Source: Parabacteroides sp. (lineage in GTDB: Bacteria; Bacteroidota; Bacteroidia; Bacteroidales; Tannerellaceae). From it: a DNA stretch of 64,000 nucleotides. Positions 41,027 through 58,192 of the stretch are shown here, piece after piece. The notes under the pieces were generated by a model. The model had not been told where the DNA came from. It made no database searches and saw nothing but the letters and a program-made list of their open reading frames with translations. The position numbers and the translations under genes were made by a program. Numbering within the stretch: the first letter of the stretch is position 1; every line of letters starts with the position of its first letter. Where the stretch lies: NCBI GenBank assembly GCA_028689545.1, contig JAQVCX010000003.1, positions 1-64,000 on the forward strand, given 5' to 3'.

Positions 41027-41130
41027 CTGTACAATAGAAGTATATCCGACGAAGAATATAGAAGCATCCAAATAATTATTCTTACTGAAGTAAGACGGAT
41101 ATTAACTTGATTTCATATCTTTGCCTCGAA

Positions 41131-41306
41131 TTGGTTTCGTACGCTCGTTCGGGCATACGGATTAAAAGGGAATCAGGTGTAAATCCTGAACAGTCCCGTT
41201 GCTGTGAAGCTCTATTTCAAACATTCCGGAAACACTTTCGCCACTGGTATATAAGGATATATACCGGGAAGGCTTTCGGGATGGGAGTCAGTCAGAAGAC
41301 CTGCCA
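41131..41306 (+). ncRNA. Cobalamin riboswitch 4
   Basis: GGGAATCAGGTGTAAATCCTGAACAGTCCCGTTGCTGTGAAG...TTCGCCACTGG...GGGAAGG...GTCAGAAGACCTGCC; -7 TATCTTTG upstream. Confidence 0.95.
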
Positions 41307-41375
41307 ATTAGGGAGAAGTCGTTCGCGAGGACAGAGCGGCTTGGTACGAATCATTTTCTAAACAGGTTTTAAATA

Positions 41376-43391
41376 ATGGCGTTATCCTTTGCTAGAAAGG
41401 GGTACCTCGCTGGCGTATTATCTATGCTGGCGATAGGTATGTCCCACGGACAAAGCAAACTCGACTCTATCCAGCACTTGGACGAAGTTACGGTCACAGC
41501 CCGGAGTTTCAGCTTTAAAGAGGTAATTCCTTCCCAAAAACTATCGGGAAAAGAATTACAGAATTTGAACAGTCACACGGTAGCGGATGCCTTACGCTAC
41601 TTCTCGGGTGTCCAGCTGAAAGACTATGGGGGCGTAGGAGGTATCAAGACCGTAAATATCCGGAGTATGGGAACGAACCACATGGGTGTCTTCTACGACG
41701 GCATCGAATTGAGCAACGCGCAAAACGGACAAGTAGACCTCGGGATGTATTCCTTGGACAATATCGAGGAGATCTCTTTATACAATGGCCAGAAGAGCGA
41801 CATCTTCCAGTCCGCTAAAGATTTCGGCGCGGCCGGCACGCTTTATCTGCGTTCCCGTCGCCCTCGTTTCAAAGAAGGGAAAACGACGAATATCCGAGCC
41901 ACGATGAAAGTAGGCTCCTTCGACGTTATCAATCCCTCGGCCCTGTTCGAATATAAGATATCGGAAAACGTAGCCGCCTCTTTCAGCGCCGAATGGTTAA
42001 GCGGAAGCGGTAAATACAAATTCCGTTACCGCCGTATCAACCCCGCCGGAGAGATCGCTTACGATACGACCGCCGTCCGGGAAAACGGGGACATCAACGC
42101 CACCCGCCTAGAGGCCGGGCTGTATGGTAAGATGAGCGACGGCACTTGGAATCTTAAGTTCTACAACTACAATTCCGAACGAGGCATCCCGGGAGCCATC
42201 GTAAACAACGTATGGAGACGTGGCGAACGGGTATGGGACATGAACTCTTTCATGCAAGGCTCCTACATCAAAGAAATCAACAGCAAATTCAAGACACAGG
42301 TCAACGCAAAATACGCCTTCTACCGTACGCATTATGTGAACAACGACGACAAGCTGATTCATGTAGACAACCTGTATAAGCAACGAGAGATTTACCTATC
42401 CTCCGCGAACGTCTATTCCATCCTCTCGAACTGGGACGTATCCGCTTCTTACGACTTGCAATGGAACAAGATGAACGCCGACATGTATGGATTCGTCTAC
42501 CCGGAACGCTTCACCAACCTCCTTTCGGTCGCCACGGCGCTCCGGTTAGGGAAAGTGAAATTGCAGACCAGCGGACTGGCCACCTTTATCAACGACCGTG
42601 TAAAGGAAGGCCCCGCGCCCGAAGCCCGGCAAATCCTTACACCCGCCGTGTTCGCCTCGTATAAGCCGTTCGAGAAACACGACTTTAATGTACGCGCTTT
42701 CTATAAACGGATCTTCCGCATGCCTACCTTCAACGATTTATATTACGCCGATATGGGAAACTCCAAATTAAACCCGGAATACGTAACCCAATATGACGCC
42801 GGCTTCGCTTACGCGAAAACGTGGGAGAACCATCTTTTCTATCGCTTCAAGATACAGGCGGATGGTTATTACAACAAAGTGAAAGATAAGATCATCGCTT
42901 ACCCCAAAGGCCAGCAATTCCGCTGGACGATGCTGAATTTGGGTAAGGTAGAAATCAAAGGCATAGATGTCAGCGCGGAGACGACCGTCAATCCTGCAAA
43001 AGATCTATTCGTCACGTTGCGCGTACAATACACCTATCAAAAGGCCCAAGACTTCACGGATCCCTCGGATACCTATTACGGCGACCAGATCCCTTATATC
43101 CCTTGGCACAGCGGTTCCGCCATCGCGCAAGCCTCCTTCAAGGGATGGAACCTCAACTACAGCTTTATCTATGTGGGAGAGCGGTATAACCAGCAAGAGA
43201 ATATCAAGTATAATTATACGCAACCTTGGTACACCAGCGATATCTCCTTGTCGAAAGATCTGAAATTCAAATTCGGGCTTATCAAGGCCGCCGTAGAGGT
43301 AAACAACCTGTTAAGCCAAGATTACGACGTGATCTTGAACTATCCGATGCCGAAGCGGAATTACAAAGTATCTTTAACCATCGAGCTATGA
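41376..43391 (+). CDS. btuB: TonB-dependent corrinoid receptor
   Basis: Paralog of the 21069-23072 receptor: 'ADALRYFSGVQLKDYGGVGGIKTVNIRSMGTNHMGVFYDGIELSNAQNGQVDLGMYSLDNIEEISLYNGQKSDIFQSAKDFGAAGTLYLRSRRP'; downstream of riboswitch 4. Confidence 0.92.
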   Translation: MALSFARKGYLAGVLSMLAIGMSHGQSKLDSIQHLDEVTVTARSFSFKEVIPSQKLSGKELQNLNSHTVADALRYFSGVQLKDYGGVGGIKTVNIRSMGTNHMGVFYDGIELSNAQNGQVDLGMYSLDNIEEISLYNGQKSDIFQSAKDFGAAGTLYLRSRRPRFKEGKTTNIRATMKVGSFDVINPSALFEYKISENVAASFSAEWLSGSGKYKFRYRRINPAGEIAYDTTAVRENGDINATRLEAGLYGKMSDGTWNLKFYNYNSERGIPGAIVNNVWRRGERVWDMNSFMQGSYIKEINSKFKTQVNAKYAFYRTHYVNNDDKLIHVDNLYKQREIYLSSANVYSILSNWDVSASYDLQWNKMNADMYGFVYPERFTNLLSVATALRLGKVKLQTSGLATFINDRVKEGPAPEARQILTPAVFASYKPFEKHDFNVRAFYKRIFRMPTFNDLYYADMGNSKLNPEYVTQYDAGFAYAKTWENHLFYRFKIQADGYYNKVKDKIIAYPKGQQFRWTMLNLGKVEIKGIDVSAETTVNPAKDLFVTLRVQYTYQKAQDFTDPSDTYYGDQIPYIPWHSGSAIAQASFKGWNLNYSFIYVGERYNQQENIKYNYTQPWYTSDISLSKDLKFKFGLIKAAVEVNNLLSQDYDVILNYPMPKRNYKVSLTIEL

Positions 43392-44548
43392 AAAGATATA
43401 CATTATATATAATAGGTATCCTGATCGGTATCGGTTGCGCTTTCTCATCCTGCCGCAAGATCGAGATCGTGGTCCCATCGGAATACGAGCTGGTATCCGA
43501 CGGTATCCATCCCGAGGCGAATCCCCAAGGGATGTATTTGGTGAACGAGGGGAATATGGGAAGCAATAAATGTACGCTGGATTATCTGGATTACGTGAAC
43601 GGTTATTATATCCGTAACCTTTACTCGGAGCGAAACCCGAACGTGGTCAAGGAGCTGGGCGATGTAGGCAATGATATCCAGATTTACGGAAGTAAGCTAT
43701 ACGTCGTAGTCAATTGTTCCCATAAAGTAGAGGTACTGGATGCCCGGACTTGCGAGCGGATCACGCAGATAGACATCCCCAACTGCCGGTATATCCGTTT
43801 CTATCGGGGAAACGCCTATGTAACCTCTTATGTAGGCCCGGTGCAAATCGACCCGAACGCTCCGCAAGGAGCCGTCTACCGGGTAGATACGACCAGCCTG
43901 AAAGTGGACGCCAAAGTCATCGTCGGTTACCAACCGGATGAGTTAGAGATTCTGGGTGAATATATCTACGTAGCGAATTCCGGAGGATATCGTGCCCCGG
44001 AGTACGACAATACGGTTTCCGTCATCGAGCTAAACCGCTTCAAGCAAGTCCAGAAGATTCCGGTAGGGATCAACCTGCACCGTATCCGTGCGGATAAATA
44101 CGGTAAATTATGGGTAACCTCCCGGGGAGATTACGACACGGTACATTCCAACCTGTATGTGCTGCAAAAGCGGAAAGGATATAATGAGATGGTGGTTACC
44201 GACACCCTGAATATCCCTTGCTCCAACCTTTGCATCAGCGGAGATTCCCTTTTCTATTACAGTACGGAATGGAACGTGAACACGCAGAGCAACACCCTCT
44301 CGTACGGAATCATAGATGTCCGTACCAAAAAGGTGATCAGCACGAACTTTATCACCGACGGTAGCGAGAAAGACATTCGCATCCCTTACGGGATCATGGT
44401 CCATCCCTATACGAAAGACATCTTCGTCACCGATGCCAAGAATTACGTATCCAGCGGAACCCTCTATTGCTACGATAAGAACGGGATACGGAAATGGGGC
44501 GTACGCACCGGGGATATCCCCGCCCATATGGTTTTCCTTTATAAATAG
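43388..44548 (+). CDS. btuG: BtuG-like surface lipoprotein (YncE/DUF5074-type propeller)
   Basis: Start MKRYTLYIIGILIGIGCAFSSC overlaps btuB stop (ATGA); 'MYLVNEGNMGSNKCTLDYLDYVNGYYIRNLYSERNPNVVKELGDVGNDIQIYGSKLYVVVNCSHKVEVLDARTCERITQIDIPNCRYIRFYRGNAYVTSY'. Confidence 0.8.
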   Translation: MKRYTLYIIGILIGIGCAFSSCRKIEIVVPSEYELVSDGIHPEANPQGMYLVNEGNMGSNKCTLDYLDYVNGYYIRNLYSERNPNVVKELGDVGNDIQIYGSKLYVVVNCSHKVEVLDARTCERITQIDIPNCRYIRFYRGNAYVTSYVGPVQIDPNAPQGAVYRVDTTSLKVDAKVIVGYQPDELEILGEYIYVANSGGYRAPEYDNTVSVIELNRFKQVQKIPVGINLHRIRADKYGKLWVTSRGDYDTVHSNLYVLQKRKGYNEMVVTDTLNIPCSNLCISGDSLFYYSTEWNVNTQSNTLSYGIIDVRTKKVISTNFITDGSEKDIRIPYGIMVHPYTKDIFVTDAKNYVSSGTLYCYDKNGIRKWGVRTGDIPAHMVFLYK

Positions 44549-44557
44549 AACAACGTT

Positions 44558-45838
44558 ATGAGACAAGCTTTATATCTATTCCTTTCAGGTTTCCTGGCAT
44601 TTCTATCCTGTACCCAAGACAAGATACAGATGGTCAGCTTGGGTATCGATGATGTCTATTATCTGCCCCGCATGAAGACCTACCTGCTCAGCCCGGCCTT
44701 TACCGGCGACGAGTATCGGTGGACACTGCACCGGAACGGGACGGACTCTCTCGTATCTACCGAACGTTCTTATATCTTCCTCGCGAAAGACACGGGCACC
44801 TATCAGATGACCTTCCAGATCATTGATAAGGAGACCCTCTATAAGCACGAGTTCCGTTTCGAGGTGATGCAGGAGGAAATAGAATACAGCCCTTATTTAT
44901 CCAAGGTGTACGACTTTTGCCCCGCACCGGGTCAGTTCGTCAATACGATGCCCGAATACGAGGAAGGCGATACGAAAGAAACCATCCTGAAGAAGGTAGA
45001 GGAGAATATCTCCGGCACGAACGACGTGATGATCTCCCTCGGAGGATACGGAGGATATGTGATCTTCGGCTTCGACCATACCGTTATCAACGTGAAAGGG
45101 AAGCAGGACTTTATGATCCTTGGAAACTCTTTCTATTCCGACCTGCCGGAATATCAAGAGAAAAAGGGAGGCAGCTGCGAGCCCGGCATCGTCATGGTCT
45201 CTTTCGACACGAACCAGAACGGCCTGCCGGACGACGAATGGTACGAACTGGCCGGTAGCGAGTACGATAAACCGGAAACCATCAAGAATTATCGCATTAC
45301 CTATGATCGTCCGGATCCCAACAAGATCCCCGAGCCAGACATGAGCCAGCAATGGAGTGATGCCACTTACGTGCCATGGAAAGATAATCAAGGCAATACC
45401 GGTTATCTGGCGAAAAACATATACCATACGCAAAGTTATTATCCGAAGTGGATCGAGGAGCATTCTCTGACTTTCTCCGGTACCCGGTTAAAGGACAACG
45501 CCACGGACGAGAGCGGCTCGGGCAAATACTACGTGCTCTACTCCTATCCATGGGGATACGTAGATAACCATCCGAACGATCACAAGGATCTGAACGGCTT
45601 CGATATCGAATGGGCCGTAGATACGGAAGGCAATAAGGTAGAACTACCCGGCGTAGACTTTATCAAGGTGTACACGGCGGTAAACCAATATTGCGGTTGG
45701 ATCGGCGAGACCTCGACGGAGATTATCCGTGCGCAGGATTTACACATCGCCCCCCCTTCCATCGTCGTACCCGATCCGGTAAGCGAACAAATGAAATCAC
45801 AATACGATCAAGCAATCTTAAAAATAAAAAGCTTATGA
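44558..45838 (+). CDS. Cell-surface lipoprotein with PKD-like N-domain, B12-operon accessory protein
   Basis: Lipobox 'LAFLSC'; N-terminal Ig/PKD-like region, conserved 'VMISLGGYGGYVIFGFDHTVINVKGKQDFMILGNSF...PGIVMVSFDTNQNGLPDDEWYELAGSEY'; in operon with btuBG. Confidence 0.7.
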   Translation: MRQALYLFLSGFLAFLSCTQDKIQMVSLGIDDVYYLPRMKTYLLSPAFTGDEYRWTLHRNGTDSLVSTERSYIFLAKDTGTYQMTFQIIDKETLYKHEFRFEVMQEEIEYSPYLSKVYDFCPAPGQFVNTMPEYEEGDTKETILKKVEENISGTNDVMISLGGYGGYVIFGFDHTVINVKGKQDFMILGNSFYSDLPEYQEKKGGSCEPGIVMVSFDTNQNGLPDDEWYELAGSEYDKPETIKNYRITYDRPDPNKIPEPDMSQQWSDATYVPWKDNQGNTGYLAKNIYHTQSYYPKWIEEHSLTFSGTRLKDNATDESGSGKYYVLYSYPWGYVDNHPNDHKDLNGFDIEWAVDTEGNKVELPGVDFIKVYTAVNQYCGWIGETSTEIIRAQDLHIAPPSIVVPDPVSEQMKSQYDQAILKIKSL

Positions 45839-47694
45839 AAAAGACGATTACCTTACTTCTCTGTACGTTCGCCACGAGCGGCCTAATGGCCCAAGGCAAC
45901 ACCTCATGGATGGCCGCCGGCATAGATCCGGCCCAAATGAGGGATGTACCGTCACAATCATCCATCCTACGTTCCGCGGATATGGATTACAGTCAAGGGA
46001 CATTCATCGTAAACGAGGATTGGTACGGCCATCAGAACAGTACCGTCAATTTCCTTACTCACGATGGAGAATGGCACTATCGTGTCTTCCAAACCGAGAA
46101 TCCGGGTCATGAGTTAGGATGTACCACGCAATTCGGCACGATCTACGGCGATAAGTTCTACTTAGTCTCTAAGCAAGAGCGAGATCCCGGGGCAAAAATC
46201 ACCGGAAGCCGGTTTGCCGTATGCGATGCCAAGACCATGAAGGTGATCAAGGAGTTCAAGTATATCGCCCAAAACACCAAGGGTAAATCCATAGCCGACG
46301 GACGTTCTTATCTTCCGGTAGACGAGCACAAAGGCTATATAGGAACCAGCAACGGTATCTGGATTTACGATAGCGATAAGATGACGATCGACAAACAAGT
46401 AGAAGGTTCCGGAAATCCGAACGCCGATGGATACGGTGAATTGTATTATGCCCAGATCGGAACCATGGTACGAGCCAACGACCTTGTCTTCGCCGTCCAT
46501 CAACAATATGGCTTATTGATAATAGACCCGAAAACCGATAAAGTCATCCGTACCATCGCCGCCCCGATCGAGAAAGAGACCGTAAAAGGGCAAGAGAAGG
46601 ATATCCAACGGGGTTTCGGCTCTATCGTTCAGTCCAAGGATGGCACGCTCTGGATCAGCATGACCCAAAATACGGCCGGGGATGGCTCGGCCTTGGAATA
46701 TATGCTCAACTTAAACCCCTATACCTTTCAGGTAGACACGGTAAAGATCCCGTTAAGCGAGACCATCGGTGTCGTCCCGAACTCTTGGTACGCATGGACC
46801 GCCGATGGTTTCTGCGCCAGTGCCAAAGAAAATAAGATTTATTGGAACGGACAACCGAAAAAAGGCAGTTGGTTCACGGGGTATCAAATCTGCGGGTATG
46901 ATATCGACAAGAAACAATTCTTCCAGCTAATCGACCTTACCCAATTGGAAGAGGGAAATTGGCGCTTATACGGAACGGGATTCCGCCTAAATCCTCAGAC
47001 GGATGAGCTATACACCCTTTTGTATCATGAGTTCCAAGATCCTACGCATCTGTTAGCTCGTATCAGTAACAAAGGCGAAGTAATACAAGAATATTCTATG
47101 ATCGTAAACTATTGGTTCCCGGCTCTTCCGGTATTTCCGGATAATGCGGCACCTGTAGTTTCCTCCAGCTTCCCTTCTTCTATCAGTCTGACGGAAGACA
47201 AGCCCGTCTATAAACTCGCCTTAGGTAATATGGTTAGTGACGCGGACAATATGGACGCTGCCATCGTGAAATCGATCTCCTCCGTTACGCCCTCATCTCC
47301 TATCAGCGCAATTATTCGTAACGACTCATTAATTGTCAGCTCGACCGCTACGACTCCGGAGGATCATCGTTCCACGGTAACGATCCGTTTCAATTCCAAC
47401 GGTAAAATCATCACGAAAGATCTTCTTGTTACCACGGGTAATCCCCCGACAAGCGTAGAAGAACTCGCACGCCCGACGCTTCATCTCTACCCTAATCCAG
47501 CGGTAAATACCATACGAATCAGTATCGGCACAGCCGCCACCGTAGAGATTTACACGACAAACGGCACCAGGGTTCAAAAAGCAGCGATCCAACCGGGTGA
47601 ATCCATAGACGTAAGTCATTTATCCCAAGGACTCTATTTCGTCCGTGTAATCACGGGAGAAAAGACAGAGACCGTAAGGATGATCAAGAGATAA
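45835..47694 (+). CDS. DUF5074-like beta-propeller protein with T9SS type A C-terminal sorting domain
   Basis: Start MKKTITLLLCTFATSGLMAQ overlaps previous stop; propeller 'GTFIVNEDWYGHQNSTVNFLTHDGEWHYRVFQTENPGHELGCTTQFG'; C-term 'LHLYPNPAVNTIRISIGTAATVEIYTTNGTRVQKAAIQPGESIDVSHLSQGLYFVRVITGEKTETVRMIKR'. Confidence 0.85.
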   Translation: MKKTITLLLCTFATSGLMAQGNTSWMAAGIDPAQMRDVPSQSSILRSADMDYSQGTFIVNEDWYGHQNSTVNFLTHDGEWHYRVFQTENPGHELGCTTQFGTIYGDKFYLVSKQERDPGAKITGSRFAVCDAKTMKVIKEFKYIAQNTKGKSIADGRSYLPVDEHKGYIGTSNGIWIYDSDKMTIDKQVEGSGNPNADGYGELYYAQIGTMVRANDLVFAVHQQYGLLIIDPKTDKVIRTIAAPIEKETVKGQEKDIQRGFGSIVQSKDGTLWISMTQNTAGDGSALEYMLNLNPYTFQVDTVKIPLSETIGVVPNSWYAWTADGFCASAKENKIYWNGQPKKGSWFTGYQICGYDIDKKQFFQLIDLTQLEEGNWRLYGTGFRLNPQTDELYTLLYHEFQDPTHLLARISNKGEVIQEYSMIVNYWFPALPVFPDNAAPVVSSSFPSSISLTEDKPVYKLALGNMVSDADNMDAAIVKSISSVTPSSPISAIIRNDSLIVSSTATTPEDHRSTVTIRFNSNGKIITKDLLVTTGNPPTSVEELARPTLHLYPNPAVNTIRISIGTAATVEIYTTNGTRVQKAAIQPGESIDVSHLSQGLYFVRVITGEKTETVRMIKR

Positions 47695-47703
47695 AAATTT
47701 CCT

Positions 47704-47711
47704 TACCTTTG
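47704..47711 (+). promoter_or_regulatory. -7 element TACCTTTG for riboswitch 5
   Basis: Matches TAnnTTTG, directly 5' of the riboswitch and 10 nt after the preceding stop codon. Confidence 0.5.
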
Positions 47712-47719
47712 TGCCCGAA

Positions 47720-47886
47720 TTGGTTTCGTAAAGCCTATTCGGGCATACGGATTAAAAGGGAATCCGGTGAGAATCCGGAACAGTCCCGCTGCTGTGAAAC
47801 TCCTTTAACATTCTAATACTACTTTCGCCACTGGCTCAAGATAGTCGGGAAGGCATTAGAATGGGAGCTAGTCAGAAGACCTGCCA
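47720..47886 (+). ncRNA. Cobalamin riboswitch 5
   Basis: GGGAATCCGGTGAGAATCCGGAACAGTCCCGCTGCTGTGAAACTCC...TTCGCCACTGG...GGGAAGGC...GTCAGAAGACCTGCC; very similar to riboswitch 4. Confidence 0.95.
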
Positions 47887-47947
47887 TTCATTTAAGATTC
47901 ATATCCTCGTGGGTTAGGATATAACGTAAATATAAGAACAAAAAGAA

Positions 47948-49285
47948 ATGATGACAGACAAGGAAGTATTGTTGTTACGGCGTAAATTGGATCTTTTGCT
48001 CCGCACGGGAAAATTGTTGATGGAAAGTGCCGCCGACACGAACCGTATTGAGCGAAACATGAAACGGGTTGCCGCCTTTATGGGTATCCCCGAGGAGAAG
48101 TTGCATATCGATATCCGATGGACCATGATCATGGTGAACGTAAGCGATGAGCGAAACTCATTCTCCAAATTCCAGAAATGTGAGAAGCATGGTATTAACA
48201 TGACGACGATCTCACAGGTAAGCAAGCTTTCATGGCGGGCGATCGAGCAAGATTATTCCTTGGATAAATATGAGGAAGAACTGGAGAAGATCGCTCACCA
48301 ACCCCGGAATTACACCCCTTATATCGTAGCCATTGGAGCGGGATTCGCTTGCGGAGGATTCTGTAAGTTATTCGGATGCGACTGGATGGCATTCCTCTTC
48401 GCTTCCATTTGCGCTTTCGTAGGGTTTAGGGTACGGGCCCGCTGTGTAGAGGCGGGACTTAACGTATATATGAGTATCGCCGCCGCCGCTTTCGTATCCA
48501 CCTGCTTGGCCTATGCGTCCTCTTTCTCCGGGCTATCCCACACACCTTATCATCCATTATTAGCCTGTGCTTTATTTATCGTACCGGGCGTACCCTTGAT
48601 CAACTTCGTGGATGATATGCTAGACAATCATTTGCTGGTCGGCATTACCCGAGCCTCCAATACGGTCATGATGGTAGCCGCCATGACTTTCGGTATCGCG
48701 TTCGCCATGCGGGTACTTGTCATGAATGATGTAGAGATCGATCATAAGTTCAGTGAATTAAGTATGGTTCCACATGATCCATACTACATATACGCGATAG
48801 CAGCCGCTATTGCGGCCATAGGTTTTTCCATGATATTCAACGTTCAGCGTCGTCTATTATGGGTAGTCGCCGTAGGAGGTATCATCGCCGTATGTACCCG
48901 TAACTTCGTAAACTTCGAGTTGGGATATGGTCCCGTGATCGGTTCGTTTATGGGAAGCTTCGTAGTCAGCGTGCTTGCTATCAAGGCCGTCCATTGGTGC
49001 CACGTGCCCAATCATGTGCTGACCATCCCATCGGTTATCCCCATGATCCCGGGAGTCTTGATGTATCGTTCTCTATTAGCGTTCATCAATCTGCATGGAG
49101 TAATCGGTGAGGTCACAAACGCGTTCTTCAATGGTATCAACTCCGCCCTTATCATCCTTTGTATCTCCTTGGGAGTAGCTGTCCCGAACATCTTCGCCCG
49201 CCGCTACATCGCCAAAGATCGCCACCGCCACCTACAAGAAGAGTTGGAGAAGCGTAGGCAAAGGGGGAAGTTTATTGAATGGTAG
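47948..49285 (+). CDS. ThrE-family exporter, fused YjjP-like (DUF1212) and YjjB-like (ThrE_2) halves
   Basis: N-half 'RKLDLLLRTGKLLMESAADTNRIERNMKRVAAFMGI'; ~10 hydrophobic segments; C-half 'VPNHVLTIPSVIPMIPGVLMYRSLLAFI'. Confidence 0.85.
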   Translation: MMTDKEVLLLRRKLDLLLRTGKLLMESAADTNRIERNMKRVAAFMGIPEEKLHIDIRWTMIMVNVSDERNSFSKFQKCEKHGINMTTISQVSKLSWRAIEQDYSLDKYEEELEKIAHQPRNYTPYIVAIGAGFACGGFCKLFGCDWMAFLFASICAFVGFRVRARCVEAGLNVYMSIAAAAFVSTCLAYASSFSGLSHTPYHPLLACALFIVPGVPLINFVDDMLDNHLLVGITRASNTVMMVAAMTFGIAFAMRVLVMNDVEIDHKFSELSMVPHDPYYIYAIAAAIAAIGFSMIFNVQRRLLWVVAVGGIIAVCTRNFVNFELGYGPVIGSFMGSFVVSVLAIKAVHWCHVPNHVLTIPSVIPMIPGVLMYRSLLAFINLHGVIGEVTNAFFNGINSALIILCISLGVAVPNIFARRYIAKDRHRHLQEELEKRRQRGKFIEW

Positions 49286-50988: not shown

Positions 50989-53900
50989 TTATTTATTAAT
51001 AACGATCTTCTTACTAATCCGATCGTCGTCTTTCACCAATGTTATTATATAGGCTCCTCGTGAATATGAAATCAAACGAGACTCGTTTATTCCCATAACC
51101 TCGAAAATATCCAATATAGCTCCATTCAAACTTATAATGTAGCAGTGATACCCCATCAAGTTATTCAAATGCAATTGTCCATCTTGATAGTAAATCGCCA
51201 CTTCACCAGCACCGATTGCCTCATTACCCACCGGACCGGATGTGGAGAATGGCTCACTATAGAAGGTTCCTAATATCTCTTGACTACCATTCCCTTCCTT
51301 GATAACTGTAACTTTCACAATATATTCTGAACTCCCATCTAATTCCGGAATAGAGACCTTGATCTTTTCTTGTTCTCCGGAACGAAGCTCACTCATCAAA
51401 CCGGTAAGAACATTACCATCCGCATCAGTCGTGTACACTCCAAATAATACAGGTATTTCATTTACGTACTTATAAACAGACACCTCGTAGAAAGTAGCCT
51501 CCGGGACTTTCGGGAATGTTAATATAGCCGTGGAATCTTGTACTTCAACCACAGGTTTTTCTAAATCTGGATCTATTACCGTCACTTCGCAAGTAGCGGT
51601 ATAACCTCCTTCGTCAGTTGTTACCGTAATTGTAGCTACACCAGCGATACCCGCCTTAACCGTACCGTTGCTACCTACCATGGCTACCGTAGCATCCGAG
51701 GAACTCCAAGTTACCGATTTATTAATCGCACTAGCTGGAGATACCACCGCTGCTAATACAGCCTCCTCACCTTTATTCAAAGACAAAGAAGACGCATTTA
51801 GGCTAACACCCGTAACATTTGCCCCCGGTTTTTCCGATTCTGCGGAAACAATCACTTTACAAGTAGCCGTATAGCCACCATCAAGGGTTTCAGCCGTAAT
51901 CGTCGCAGTTCCCTCACTCATAGCTTTCACATTGCCATCCTTGTCAATATCGACTACAAAGCGGTCATCGCTTAACCAATTTACGACTTTTGTTTTTGCG
52001 TTTTCCGGAGTAATAGTCGCCTTTAACAATGCACCTTCTCCAACTTTCAACTCTAATCGTTCTTGATCCAAGGATACACCTGTTACCTTAATGATACCTT
52101 CGCCAACCGAGAGTGTGCAAGAAGCGACAAAGCCGCCTGTATTCGTAGTCACTCGAATTGTTGTCTCACCATCGCTTAGGGCTTGAATTTTACCTGTCTC
52201 CGGATCAATAGAAGCCACATTCTCATCACTGCTAGACCAAGTAACACTCTTATCCACATCCGGTTTGCTCGGATCTGTTTGCACTTCATATTTCAATAGC
52301 TGTTCTCCTCCTACAGAAGCAACCATCTGCGAAGCTTCCAAGGTTACCCCCCACATTCCTGTACTACGATCCGTTACATGAAGTAAGATTTCATCTGTAA
52401 CACCATCTGCTTTCGCCTTAAAAAAGACCTTAGTTGTTCCGACTTTCCGGGGACGATAATATCCAAAAGAACCATCCAAAACGAATTTAAGCACCTCTTC
52501 ATCTTCAATTGTAAACTTTGGTATTTTCAATATCACATCATCACAAATACTCGCATTTTCCGGAAAATAACTATATTTAAAAAGACCCATAAAATCTTTA
52601 ATATTCTGCTGACTCATATCAATCGACAATTCCCGAGGCTCAATCTTTAGGCTTTGAGCAGGGATATCACCTTGTATATAAATCACACATGTATCCGAGA
52701 ACAGGCCATCTTCACTTTTCGCATATGCGATAACTTCTCCAACTGTTTTAGAGCCAGAAAAAAAGCCATCTGACGTAACATTATTACCCGACCACTCAAT
52801 CGAAGAAAAAGTAGCATTTTCAGGATAAATCTGAGCCTTCAGTTGTATAGTCTCATTTCTTTTTATCCTTATTTCCTTTTGTTGAACAACAACCTTTTCA
52901 ACCGGCACAGAACAAACAAAGACTTGACACTCTCCCTTAAATTGAACGTTATTATCATTACTACCATCCGAAAGATAAGCTTTCACAGTTGTCTTACCTT
53001 CTCCTACCGCTGTAATCAAACCATTCTCGTCGATCTTTGCGACAGTTTCATCCGCAGAAGAATAAAGGAGTTTCTTGTTTTCCCGCTCCTCTTCAGAAAG
53101 AGAGCCATAATCTACAACAGCCCCAATTTGAATTGGATCGTCACCAACTTGCATTGAATGAGTATATTCATTTAAAGTCAAAGAATTCGCCCAATTGGAA
53201 ACAACGACCAAACATTCTATCGGATATGATTTTCCTATTTTTGAGTCCTCAACTGTAGCTGTTATTTTAGCTTTTCCTATACGCTTTGCTGAAGTGCCTT
53301 TTCGTTGTATCGTTATCTCGGAATCTGTGAATGACAAGCCCCATTTCGTTCCTGGCTCTTCAATCCATTCAATAGACGCATTGGATGCCTTCATCGTATT
53401 TGTTTTTCCCGGATAATAAGATATAGGCAATACTGTTTTTAGAGGTGTAGAAGAAGCTTTAATACCAAAAATCTTATTTGTAAATTCAACACGTTCCACC
53501 TCAAACTCAGGGCAAACCACCTTACAGGATACCTCTACCTCTCCAGATGTAGCAGTTATAGTAGCCTCTCCAACTCCACACGCAGTCACAACGCCATCCT
53601 TTACAGAGAAAGAAGCATCCGAACTACTCCACTTAACAGTTTTATTTGTAGCGTCTTCCGGTGTTACAATTGCTTTTAATTCTATTTGCTGGCTCATTTC
53701 AATGGAGATAGGTCCCTCTGAAATTAAGTCTCCTGCTGAGTTCCTCAGTACTATCTCTGCTACAGGAATTGCTTTCAATACCTTAACCTTACATTTCGTG
53801 ATTGATAATTCTTCTCCGGTTTCCTTCGAGGTTATCGTTCCCCATACTTCGGTTTCACCTTCCGAGATTGCCTGTATCCTTGGATGTGGCCCAGCCATTC

Positions 53901-55923
53901 CATTCAGAATAACAATTTCCTCATTTAAAGATTTCCATTCGATCTCTTCAGTGGTCGCATCAAGTCCTGTTTCCGTATCACCGTCAGGAGTCAAGCTTTC
54001 GCTCTCACCTATATACAACACGAATGAAGATTTACTCAATCCCATAGATCGACGTTTAATCGTTATAACGCAAACATCCGATTTGTCCTTTCTATCCTTG
54101 CTTGTAGCCTGAATCTTAACGGTACCATAAGCCTTACTGGTAACCACACCTTGTTCGGACACTTCCGCAATATTTGGGTTAAGGCTTGTCCATTCTATCG
54201 CTTCTCCCTCCAATCCATTAATCATCAATGTCACGGATTTGCCTTTTCCATCCATTGTCAGCTCTTTTTCTTTAAACGCAAATGGAACTGCTGATGACGC
54301 AGATAATTTCACAACCAAAGTCTTGTTCACGATCTTACCATTTGAGTTAAAGCTCAATACAAGAGGAACTTCTTTCGTTTCTTTACTTTGCACGATTGGA
54401 GCGATCGTCAATGTATTATTTATTACCTCCACATTGATCAACTCCGGATTCGGGTTTTCAATAGTAGTAACAACCGCAGAGACCATATTATCACCGTCTT
54501 CTATAATCTCATCCATAGATTTACTATACTTTGTGTTTTCAGCGGAGAACGTAATTTCGCTAGGTAAACCGTCTGTGATTGTCGGAGCTATGTTATCCGG
54601 GAACACCGGTAAAGCCGGGAACCAATAGTTTACTTTCTCATAAGGATAGCGACCTACCATTGTTCCATTCGTATCTCCTCTTCCGTCTGTCTTAATTATC
54701 GCTAATTCATGTTCCGGATTTAAAAATTCATGATAAAGGAAACAATACATATTATCATCTACCGGATCAATACGAAATCCCGTACCATAAAGACGCCAAT
54801 CTCCTTTATCTAGCTTTGTGAAATCAAACACTTGATAAAAAGAATCCTTATCTATGTCATAACAGAAGACCTTATATCCCGTGAACCAACTACCGGAACC
54901 TTGTCCTTTCCAATAGATCTTATTCTCTTTCGTACTAGCACAGAAACCATCGGCGGTCCATGCATACCAAGAGTTAGGAATCTCCTCCATACCATCCGAT
55001 GTAGGTATATCTATTTTTTGGGTAGTCAATGTGTACGGGTTCACTTTCCACAGATAAGGCATTGTCGCCCCGGAACCCGTCAGCTCGAAGGTTACACTTG
55101 CCCACAAACTTCCATCCTTTGAAAGGACGATAGAACCTAAACCGTGATTACTGTTCTCTTCCGGTTTCAACAATGTATTTACCACCTCGTCTTTTTCTGG
55201 ATCAATCACCAATAATCCTTTCGTTTGATGTACCGCAAATACATATTTTCCAACACGAACCATCGATCCTATCTGAGAATGATATAAATCACCGGCAGAA
55301 ATACCTGTCGTACCGTCAATAGCGGTAGTTTCTATTGACATTTTACTTTCATCGTACGTTCCGCTATTTGCATCATATCCTGTATAAAAAACATAAATAC
55401 CGTTACTCGTTCCAATGTAGCCCTTCGTCAGATCCACGCCTAAAAAAGAACGTCCGTCCGCACCCGGCTCACCAATCTTCTGGAATTCCTTCTTCACTTT
55501 CATTGTTTTCGCATCGATCACTGCTAAGCGACTTCCCTCTACAGATGCCGCACCATCTTTTGATTGCTTAGACACGATATATAATAAATCCCCATAAATC
55601 GCACCAAACTGGCTCGTACATCCCAGTTCATGTCCCGGATTCTCTTTTTGGAACGCATTATACGTCCAAGTCCCATCATCCGAGAAGAAGTTTACCGAGC
55701 TATTCTGGTGTCCATACCAATCCTCGTTTACGATAAAGGTTCCTTTTGTGTAATCCGCGTTTCCACCGGAACGAAGCATCGAGGATCGTACCTGTGAAAC
55801 GGGTAATTCCGGTAATTGCAGTTTCTGCTTCTCGATAGGATTCAGATCCCGCGAACCGGTTTGGCCGGCTACCGACAGGGCCGATAGCAAACAGGCCATA
55901 CTTAAGTAAAGTGTTCGTCTCAT
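50989..55923 (-). CDS. 1644-aa exported protein: DUF5074-like propeller, multiple Big_2 Ig-like repeats, T9SS-like C-terminus
   Basis: N-term 'GTFIVNEDWYGHQNSSVNFFSDDGTWTYNAFQKENPGHELGCTSQFGAIYGD' paralogous to 45835-47694; many 'VTWSSSDENVASIDPETGKIQALSDGETTIRVTT' Big_2 units; C-term 'LHLNNLMGYHCYIISLNGAILDIFEV...SRGAYIITLVKDDDRISKKIVINK'. Confidence 0.85.
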   Translation of the reverse strand: MRRTLYLSMACLLSALSVAGQTGSRDLNPIEKQKLQLPELPVSQVRSSMLRSGGNADYTKGTFIVNEDWYGHQNSSVNFFSDDGTWTYNAFQKENPGHELGCTSQFGAIYGDLLYIVSKQSKDGAASVEGSRLAVIDAKTMKVKKEFQKIGEPGADGRSFLGVDLTKGYIGTSNGIYVFYTGYDANSGTYDESKMSIETTAIDGTTGISAGDLYHSQIGSMVRVGKYVFAVHQTKGLLVIDPEKDEVVNTLLKPEENSNHGLGSIVLSKDGSLWASVTFELTGSGATMPYLWKVNPYTLTTQKIDIPTSDGMEEIPNSWYAWTADGFCASTKENKIYWKGQGSGSWFTGYKVFCYDIDKDSFYQVFDFTKLDKGDWRLYGTGFRIDPVDDNMYCFLYHEFLNPEHELAIIKTDGRGDTNGTMVGRYPYEKVNYWFPALPVFPDNIAPTITDGLPSEITFSAENTKYSKSMDEIIEDGDNMVSAVVTTIENPNPELINVEVINNTLTIAPIVQSKETKEVPLVLSFNSNGKIVNKTLVVKLSASSAVPFAFKEKELTMDGKGKSVTLMINGLEGEAIEWTSLNPNIAEVSEQGVVTSKAYGTVKIQATSKDRKDKSDVCVITIKRRSMGLSKSSFVLYIGESESLTPDGDTETGLDATTEEIEWKSLNEEIVILNGMAGPHPRIQAISEGETEVWGTITSKETGEELSITKCKVKVLKAIPVAEIVLRNSAGDLISEGPISIEMSQQIELKAIVTPEDATNKTVKWSSSDASFSVKDGVVTACGVGEATITATSGEVEVSCKVVCPEFEVERVEFTNKIFGIKASSTPLKTVLPISYYPGKTNTMKASNASIEWIEEPGTKWGLSFTDSEITIQRKGTSAKRIGKAKITATVEDSKIGKSYPIECLVVVSNWANSLTLNEYTHSMQVGDDPIQIGAVVDYGSLSEEERENKKLLYSSADETVAKIDENGLITAVGEGKTTVKAYLSDGSNDNNVQFKGECQVFVCSVPVEKVVVQQKEIRIKRNETIQLKAQIYPENATFSSIEWSGNNVTSDGFFSGSKTVGEVIAYAKSEDGLFSDTCVIYIQGDIPAQSLKIEPRELSIDMSQQNIKDFMGLFKYSYFPENASICDDVILKIPKFTIEDEEVLKFVLDGSFGYYRPRKVGTTKVFFKAKADGVTDEILLHVTDRSTGMWGVTLEASQMVASVGGEQLLKYEVQTDPSKPDVDKSVTWSSSDENVASIDPETGKIQALSDGETTIRVTTNTGGFVASCTLSVGEGIIKVTGVSLDQERLELKVGEGALLKATITPENAKTKVVNWLSDDRFVVDIDKDGNVKAMSEGTATITAETLDGGYTATCKVIVSAESEKPGANVTGVSLNASSLSLNKGEEAVLAAVVSPASAINKSVTWSSSDATVAMVGSNGTVKAGIAGVATITVTTDEGGYTATCEVTVIDPDLEKPVVEVQDSTAILTFPKVPEATFYEVSVYKYVNEIPVLFGVYTTDADGNVLTGLMSELRSGEQEKIKVSIPELDGSSEYIVKVTVIKEGNGSQEILGTFYSEPFSTSGPVGNEAIGAGEVAIYYQDGQLHLNNLMGYHCYIISLNGAILDIFEVMGINESRLISYSRGAYIITLVKDDDRISKKIVINK

Positions 55924-55937
55924 GTTAATGAATTTAA

Positions 55938-57611
55938 TTAGTGTGTAATATGAATTTTGAATGTCTTTTTATCTCCGTCTTTCTCTCCGATCAATAGGTA
56001 AATACCCGTAGGAAGGGATACCGTATGAAGTTCCGACGGAACTTGAATCGGGAAGTTTCCCAGTATCTGACCCTTTACGGTTGCCAAATAGAAATGATAT
56101 CCGGTCAAATGCTCGAATCGCAACGCTCCATTCTGATAAAGAACTTGACAAATACTAGGAGACAGCTTTTCATTACTAACCGGATTAGAGATTTTTTCTA
56201 CCCGGAAGGTATCGATTACGTCCAGTCCATCCATTACTTGTATTTCTATGGTATAAACTCCATCCGATTCTATATTTTTCAATGGAATATTAATCAGGTC
56301 TGAAGTAGCCTGAGCTGTTTTAGTTCCCAATTCGGCTATGACATTACCTTCCGCATCAACAACATAAGTAGCGATTTTCTTATAACTGTTATTTTCGTGT
56401 TTATAAACCCGAACCTCATAGGAGGTAGCCTCCTCTACTTTTGGGAACGATAGCACAGCGTTCGTATCTCCAAAATCAACGGTTGGAACAACGGTTTCGG
56501 TAATTGTCATCTCACAATGGGCTGTATATCCGCCATCTACTGTCTGAGCCGTAATTTTTGCCGTACCGGGTTTAATGCCTGTTACTACCCCATCTTTCAC
56601 GGTAGCGATTCCGGTATCCGAGCTAGTCCAAGTGACCGATTTATTATCCGCGTTCACCGGAGAGATATTTACGGTCAAGGTCGCGTTCGCTCCCGCTTGC
56701 AGACGTAAAGACGACCTATCTAAAGAAATGGACGTTACGTGGATCACCGGGATATCAGGAGTATCTCCCCCACCACCTTCTGAAGGTACTGTCGCCGCGA
56801 CAAAGACATCTCCGGGCTGAGTGCCCTCCGACGTGCCCATATCGCCATTCCAACTCCACGCGTCCCAACAACCATCCGTCAATATACGGCTTGTCGCACC
56901 TAAGCCCGAATAGCTAAAATCAGAGGTTTGGCTACTCCTCACAAAATAACTCCAATAGCCATAATACCAACCCGCTTGCCAATGAATACCGTTGCTACAA
57001 CTCCAATAGTCGTAATCATAGGAAGGATATCCATATCTCTCCGCATTTATCGGGTGATAAATAACACCCGTTTGTACCCCTTGCCGAATGGCATCCGCCA
57101 CATCCTCCGCCGGACGCTCCGGAAAAGAGGTCTGTCCCAACAGCGTATTCGTGATAGGAGGCTCAAACTTAAACGCATTATGCGACTCAGACTTCGCCCC
57201 CTCTAAATCATAAGAGATATTCAGCCGGCTCTCGCCATACCCGATCCCGTCGATCGTATATCCCATCCAACCGGTGTACTGCGTGAGCAATACCAATCGC
57301 GGATCCGCCTGGGCGATCGCCACGATCATATCATGACCGTTGGCCTCACCATCCCAACGATATCCCCATACTATGGCATCCGGACTATTACGATCGTGCC
57401 ATTCAATAACTAACGCGGCTTTCTTACTGCCACTTCCTACCCAGAATTGGATATCATCAAACGAGAAGCTGGCATCAGCCCTTAATTGAGACTCCGGTTT
57501 CGTTGGTATATAACGAGCCGAGGGATGTGGTTGACCTTGAACCAGTCCCTGAGCCGAAACACCAATTGCACACAAAGCCATTACGAAGAAAAGAGATAAA
57601 ATTTTTCTCAT
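55938..57611 (-). CDS. DUF4465-like exported protein with Big_2 domain and T9SS-like C-terminus
   Basis: Likely start MRKILSLFFVMALCAIGVSAQ (57611); 'FSFDDIQFWVGSGSKKAALVIEWHDRNSPDAIVWGYRWDGEANGHDMIVAIAQADPRLVLLTQYTGWMGYTIDGIGYG'; Big_2 unit; C-terminal sorting-like tail. Confidence 0.75.
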   Translation of the reverse strand: MRKILSLFFVMALCAIGVSAQGLVQGQPHPSARYIPTKPESQLRADASFSFDDIQFWVGSGSKKAALVIEWHDRNSPDAIVWGYRWDGEANGHDMIVAIAQADPRLVLLTQYTGWMGYTIDGIGYGESRLNISYDLEGAKSESHNAFKFEPPITNTLLGQTSFPERPAEDVADAIRQGVQTGVIYHPINAERYGYPSYDYDYWSCSNGIHWQAGWYYGYWSYFVRSSQTSDFSYSGLGATSRILTDGCWDAWSWNGDMGTSEGTQPGDVFVAATVPSEGGGGDTPDIPVIHVTSISLDRSSLRLQAGANATLTVNISPVNADNKSVTWTSSDTGIATVKDGVVTGIKPGTAKITAQTVDGGYTAHCEMTITETVVPTVDFGDTNAVLSFPKVEEATSYEVRVYKHENNSYKKIATYVVDAEGNVIAELGTKTAQATSDLINIPLKNIESDGVYTIEIQVMDGLDVIDTFRVEKISNPVSNEKLSPSICQVLYQNGALRFEHLTGYHFYLATVKGQILGNFPIQVPSELHTVSLPTGIYLLIGEKDGDKKTFKIHITH

Positions 57612-57837
57612 AAACTTTGATATTAAAATGAAAAACTCCAAAATGCGATTAACCGGGCAGGACAAAAAGAAGCAAGAAAGAATAAATTGACAACGACAAA
57701 ATATTCCATAGCTCTGCCGAAACCATGTCATAGTTCATCCTATCAATCACTCCCTTAAAGCAATATCTCTTTGTATCCCATTTTTGAATCATACGCTAAA
57801 CCCCGGTAGCGTAAAATCACGGCGGTTATCCGGCATT

Positions 57838-58010
57838 GGCAGGTCTTCTGACTTACCCCACTTTAGAACTACCTTCCCGTTCCTTCCGGAAACAGTGGCA
57901 TTGAGTGTTGTCTAAAGCTTTTTTGGAGCTTACAGCAGCGGGACTGTTTAGGTTTTACACCTAATTCCCTTTTAATCGCCGTACCCTGAATAAGGTAGGC
58001 GAACCAATAC
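57838..58010 (-). ncRNA. Cobalamin riboswitch 6
   Basis: Reverse complement contains GGGAATTAGGTGTAAAACCTAAACAGTCCCGCTGCTGTAAG, ATGCCACTGTTTCC, GGGAAGG and GTCAGAAGACCTGCC; -7 TAAATTTG upstream. Confidence 0.94.
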
Positions 58011-58192
58011 AAGGGCAAATTTATGAAAAACAATTCAATTTATACACAAAATTATCAAATCCTTCCTTTTTCCGATAGCCGCTGGTCATTCGTGGGTATT
58101 CCTGCCCTCAAAATACATATTTGTAGGTATTGCCAAGACGGATAAGATGTCGGATATTTGCTTCCGTTATCAAACTATAAAAACAAATAGAA

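Follow-up and report, generated by a model that had tools for sequence, protein, structure and literature searches.

A complete cobalamin riboswitch stands directly before a gene of the ThrE exporter family, here called thrE, in Parabacteroides sp., and the same direct arrangement is found intact in seven genomes from two families. As anatomy, we are highly confident that this arrangement is real and recurrent, and judged from the sequence the riboswitch probably acts as a working regulator of thrE. More tentatively, and at somewhat less than probable strength, we propose an OFF-type B12 switch over an exporter that relieves metabolite build-up, with succinate as the leading cargo. The features concerned are given below by their positions in the window, i.e. 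the whole stretch of 64,000 nucleotides that was analysed.

41115..41322, + strand: cobalamin riboswitch heading the neighbouring operon (RF00174, 101.7 bits)
41376..47694, + strand: operon of B12-uptake type, with a TonB receptor with plug domain, a DUF5074 gene, a PKD-like gene and a DUF5074 gene with Por secretion tail (Pfam)
47704..47902, + strand: cobalamin riboswitch aptamer of thrE (RF00174; cmscan, 107.2 bits, full model)
47704..47711, + strand: putative -7 promoter box TACCTTTG (TAnnTTTG type of Bacteroidales), at the riboswitch's 5' edge
47785..47789, + strand: L5 loop CCCGC, which can pair with L13 GTGGG (read from the sequence)
47870..47885, + strand: B12 box AGTCAGAAGACCTGCC (read from the sequence)
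47901..47922, + strand: P13 regulatory hairpin, with stem 47901-47906/47917-47922 and L13 GTGGG at 47909-47913 (from loop conservation)
47948..49285, + strand: fused ThrE/ThrE_2 (YjjP-YjjB-type) putative exporter of 445 aa (PF06738 and PF12821)

The leader matched RF00174 over model positions 1-189 with 107.2 bits (gathering score 31.5; E 7e-26), confirming the complete cobalamin riboswitch that an earlier note on this DNA had placed ahead of a single ORF. The distance of about 60 nt given there agrees with the 62 nt measured between the end of the B12 box and the thrE ATG (45 nt from the end of the Rfam match); the corresponding spacing is 66-80 nt for three uptake-type genes elsewhere in this genome whose start is clear. 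L13 is complementary to L5, whose motif CAGTCCCGCTGC was identical in all eight leaders compared. The P13 loop reads CTCGTGG(G/A)TT in seven of these eight, drawn from two families, and CTCGCGGGATT in the eighth, while the stem around it differs in sequence between clades. The P13 name, the kissing between L5 and L13 and the OFF direction of control are assigned to the thrE leader by analogy with the known behaviour of this riboswitch class. In its full aptamer, the TAnnTTTG box at the 5' edge, the L5-complementary P13 loop and a start codon roughly 60-70 nt past the B12 box, the thrE leader resembles the btuB-type RF00174 leaders of Bacteroidales; unlike them, it leads to a ThrE-family exporter and not to a gene for B12 uptake, B12 synthesis or a B12-independent isozyme. 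The leader anatomy, its recurrence in seven genomes of two families and a P13 loop that is kept while the stem changes together support B12 control of the exporter gene.

An exact TAnnTTTG box occurs only once between 47600 and 47960, at 47704, and a TAnnTTTG or TAnnTTCG box lies at the same riboswitch position in all nine cobalamin riboswitches of the genome. The earlier note had considered that thrE might be transcribed only from a promoter downstream of the riboswitch. The position of the sole strict box speaks against this, but a looser -7-like match, TACTTTCG at 47820 inside the aptamer, leaves room for an internal start. A chance juxtaposition or assembly artefact was rejected, as the same leader is found in other species and in the relative G004, a single contig of 4,811,379 bp in which riboswitch and thrE are about 50 nt apart.

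Six of the nine riboswitches of the genome lie inside the window. Those with a recognisable target there lead TonB receptors, followed by CbiK-type chelatase, DUF5074 or binding-protein genes; a surface gene with Big_2 domains follows the one at 57821-58023. The thrE gene is an outlier in this set, in line with the earlier suggestion that an exporter would be an unusual regulon member: the other identifiable targets in the genome are mostly B12-uptake or cobalt-chelatase genes. To our knowledge, cobalamin riboswitches are described mostly for uptake, synthesis and B12-independent isozymes. Like thrE, metE and the alternative ribonucleotide reductases are neither uptake nor synthesis genes and are found under cobalamin riboswitches; thrE differs from them in encoding a transporter that would vent a metabolite and not a B12-independent enzyme. 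The uptake-type operon at 41376-47694 ends 9 nt before the -7 box of the thrE riboswitch, a gap too short for a terminator, and read-through from this operon into thrE may occur.

Two further observations concern the surroundings. The gene group that follows the riboswitch at 57821-58023 begins with a gene at 55938-57731 and includes a 1644-aa protein (50989-55923, - strand) in which DUF5074 is combined with numerous Big_2 domains; this may be a large B12-binding protein of the cell surface. The top-scoring riboswitch of the genome (L001; G000 C150:9184-9385) lies a few kilobases downstream of mutAB, after a kinase-like gene, and no clear target gene was found close behind it.

The thrE product carries both Pfam domains of the family in order and far above gathering score: PF06738 (ThrE) at residues 15-256 (E 6e-72; 242.5 bits versus 26.3) and PF12821 (ThrE_2) at residues 283-415 (E 1e-30; 106.7 bits versus 27). 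As the earlier note had stated, its two halves resemble YjjP and YjjB of Escherichia coli, with 23% identity and E 3e-22 for the N-terminal half and a hhalign probability of 97% for the C-terminal half. Both halves are thus homologous, and in the same order, to the putative succinate exporter YjjP-YjjB; unlike that pair, the window protein is one fused, riboswitch-led ORF, and it scored 48.8 bits against a cut-off of 249 for the NCBIfam YjjB/PRK09917 equivalog (succinate or threonine/serine exporter). With ThrE of Corynebacterium glutamicum it shares the presence of both halves in a single polypeptide; it differs in its score against the NCBIfam threonine/serine exporter equivalog, which matched residues 14-420 with 92.7 bits against a cut-off of 550. 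We know of no B12 control described for C. glutamicum ThrE. In a ColabFold model (pLDDT 79), the protein is predicted as a helical membrane protein whose N-terminal part is soluble. The predicted structure is uninformative on the cargo because a fold search of the PDB gave no significant match (all E>0.001), and a sequence search among solved structures found no homologue. A scan of the exporter for defence genes gave no hit. Succinate export is reported for E. coli YjjPB (Fukui 2017, as cited in PMC10717943), whereas ThrE, the founding member, exports threonine and serine and is a proposed proline exporter (PMC8850433). At the level of sequence, homology is unable to choose between these cargoes.

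The description of the family as efflux systems for amino acids or organic acids (PMC8850433) bears on a different explanation, in which the protein imports or exports a B12-related compound, e.g. a cobamide precursor such as threonine-derived aminopropanol, and thrE is an ordinary member of the B12-supply regulon. The leader is of the same type as those of B12-uptake genes, and in one genome (G002) a Cys-rich CWC gene lies under the riboswitch as well. Against this explanation stand that description of the family and the frequent occurrence in Bacteroidaceae of thrE orthologues that have no riboswitch. We regard this explanation as very improbable.

The metabolic setting is consistent with a build-up of metabolites in B12 shortage. 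The window genome encodes both methylmalonyl-CoA mutase subunits (mutAB), the epimerase and decarboxylase subunits of MmdA/B/C type, which bears out the B12-dependent succinate-to-propionate route assumed in the earlier note. A further B12-binding protein, cut by the contig end, is consistent with MetH. MetE (PF01717) was absent from the 13 genomes tested, which included riboswitch-thrE carriers of both families (completeness 90.5% for the window genome and 99% for several others); as a control, it was detected in ten reference genomes (Bacteroides ihuae and nine others). Given the mutase-route genes and the lack of a detected MetE, B12 shortage would be expected to hold up the synthesis of propionate as well as that of methionine, and either succinate or amino acids of the aspartate family could then accumulate.

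We therefore consider two cargoes under the same switch. In the mechanism that we prefer, the leader would be an OFF-type cobalamin riboswitch that has a promoter of its own and, next to the gene start, a P13 hairpin whose L13 kisses L5. Plentiful B12 would repress thrE; when B12 is scarce, the ThrE-family inner-membrane exporter would be made and would relieve the build-up of a metabolite behind stalled B12-dependent enzymes, the leading candidate being succinate, blocked from propionate without methylmalonyl-CoA mutase. Three things are inferred here: that B12 turns the gene off, that the protein exports and does not import, and what it carries. Findings reported for X. ruminicola fit this mechanism in one respect and not in another: without cobalamin the organism accumulates succinate, but its four riboswitches are all located away from genes of the succinate pathway (PMC11575231).

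Alternatively, threonine, homoserine, serine or a related amino acid could be exported. Without MetE, cells would rely on MetH, and once B12 runs out methionine synthesis would stall, aspartate-family flux would become unbalanced and amino acids would be vented. The MetE result, the presence of MetH-size B12-binding proteins, the known substrates of the founding member and the full-length match of the window protein to the ThrE model all favour such a cargo. Against it, close relatives that have lost the riboswitch also lack MetE, so that MetE absence fails to separate carriers from non-carriers; moreover, no amino-acid gene was recognised adjoining thrE, and methionine shortage alone demands no export. 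Taken together, an amino-acid cargo appears unlikely, and succinate leads by a small margin.

Genomic context in a sister clade mildly favours the propionate side. In four genomes of the P. massiliensis clade (G001, G013, G015 and G016), thrE follows a riboswitch-led carboxylase operon; in L065:1-3824 the order is accC, BCCP and mmdA-type carboxyltransferase, with thrE 154 nt further. Since thrE of this clade has its own -7 box, the operon is context and not co-regulation. Orthologues of the mmdA-type carboxyltransferase also occur near thrE in G009, G010 and G038. A B12 riboswitch ahead of an acyl-CoA carboxylase seems unusual in itself. Such riboswitch-led operons of biotin carboxylase, biotin carrier and carboxyltransferase are present in several Parabacteroides (L065; also G013, G016 and G001), and in P. 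goldsteinii (G014) only an 87-nt carboxyltransferase match is left (C77:133268-133354; L140), about 250 nt from a cobalamin riboswitch; the carboxylase operon appears to have been lost there while the riboswitch stays. A search of the open-access literature for a link between riboswitches and ThrE or propionyl-CoA carboxylase in Bacteroides returned nothing relevant.

We surveyed riboswitch-ThrE pairs, as the earlier note had proposed, and found the seven genomes with an intact direct pair. In 39 genomes of Parabacteroides, 26 full-length thrE loci were present. Four of these loci have an intact same-strand riboswitch directly upstream (the window, G004, G009, which is P. faecis, and G038), and one (G002) has the order riboswitch-CWC-thrE, with no -7 box within the 360 nt before thrE. 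Deletion remnants of the riboswitch were found at six loci (G005, G023, G014, G010, G003 and G036). At G005 the 3' half is deleted and 38.9 bits are left; the MAFFT alignment misplaced the G014 leader, and the raw sequence was used to assess the remnant at this locus. In all six, thrE is an intact 445-aa ORF and the upstream TAnnTT(T/C)G box is kept. The other 15 loci have no riboswitch, two of them with less than 300 nt of upstream sequence. Split YjjP/YjjB paralogues were considered as further carriers and were not counted: in L086 and L089, from other Parabacteroides without fused thrE, two cobalamin riboswitches lie near the split genes on the opposite strand and face the other way.

In the thrE riboswitches of L062 and L074 (G009 and G038), the loop that comes after GCCACTG is enlarged by an insert, several dozen nucleotides long, which contains palindromic GTTGACAG/CTGTCAAC repeats. 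The insert may represent a small repeat element with a preference for riboswitch loops. A full-length, lower-scoring riboswitch at L137:409-691 has a similar length (283 nt) to the insert-bearing ones.

Outside Parabacteroides, none of 31 Bacteroidaceae thrE loci had a riboswitch (one offered only 206 nt to scan), nor did any of four scanned loci from other families; wide conservation of the pairing was rejected on these counts. Pattern scans of the remaining contig loci gave no riboswitch-thrE pair in Bacteroides or Phocaeicola. Among 150 sampled Rikenellaceae genomes, six carry thrE. An intact riboswitch precedes it in Rikenella, Millionella and Alistipes dk3624, with no annotatable gene between; it is decayed in G482 (35.9 bits), and no riboswitch was found at thrE in G444 and G456. 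The Rikenellaceae P13 hairpin lies well over 100 nt from the start codon, and the off mechanism may therefore differ in this family. In Rikenella microfusus (L050:5581-8360), a second riboswitch right after thrE leads the large subunit of ribonucleotide reductase, a classic riboswitch target for B12 shortage.

In the protein tree, all Parabacteroides carriers and remnants fall into one 13-row clade (SH-aLRT 81). The Rikenellaceae carriers are placed far from them with non-carriers between, several forks being weakly supported. The simplest reading would be a single gain in Parabacteroides and six or more later losses, with a separate and probable second origin in Rikenellaceae; alternatively, an ancestral riboswitch could have been lost even more often. 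B12 control of thrE is thus sporadic and repeatedly lost.

This history can also be explained by recombination: thrE, situated in a riboswitch-rich B12 island, would have gained its leader and come under B12 control with little adaptive meaning, and the leader would now be disappearing again. The density of riboswitches in the window, the divergent riboswitches that adjoin thrE in P. faecis, P. goldsteinii and P. gordonii, the fit of one gain and repeated losses to the tree and the retention of the promoter box in every remnant speak for such a capture. However, the same pairing exists in Rikenellaceae, where two of the three carriers have no other riboswitch within about 4 kb of thrE, and P13/L13 is preserved in all carriers. 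We consider capture of this kind unlikely.

The losses nevertheless weigh on our preferred mechanism of an OFF switch over an exporter. Six of the eleven Parabacteroides with a recognisable leader have lost the riboswitch and kept both promoter box and gene, and those checked still have mutase-size B12-binding proteins, so that B12 gating of thrE seems dispensable; repeated loss of this kind argues against gating being essential to the exporter's job. The mechanism is also burdened by homology that is mute on cargo, by the distant P13 of Rikenellaceae, by the location of the X. ruminicola riboswitches away from succinate genes (PMC11575231) and by the separate -7 box of sister-clade thrE. It is supported by the full-length RF00174 match with uptake-leader geometry, the P13 loop, recurrence in two families, the mutase-route genes, succinate accumulation in X. 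ruminicola (PMC11575231), the YjjPB report and the sister-clade operon. For the B12-gated succinate exporter of the earlier note, this means that riboswitch control of a ThrE-family gene held up on anatomy, on seven genomes and on P13. The succinate cargo did not gain the same support, as the protein falls below both equivalog cut-offs, the family also exports threonine and serine, and MetE was not found. That B12 opens the succinate-to-propionate route and at the same time closes the exit for succinate through the riboswitch is therefore possible but doubtful.

A metabolite exporter under a cobalamin riboswitch would tie the vitamin directly to the products that a gut bacterium releases, and the P. 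distasonis-type leader makes this testable. If thrE is indeed a B12-gated succinate exporter, B12 supply would set how much succinate versus propionate is handed to neighbours and host, a balance of importance for cross-feeding and for the metabolism of the host. That the switch was lost repeatedly while the gene stayed tempers the claim of B12 gating and is a result in its own right. The clade thereby offers a natural experiment, in which one and the same riboswitch is, among close relatives, retained, riddled with an insert, or deleted while its promoter stays.
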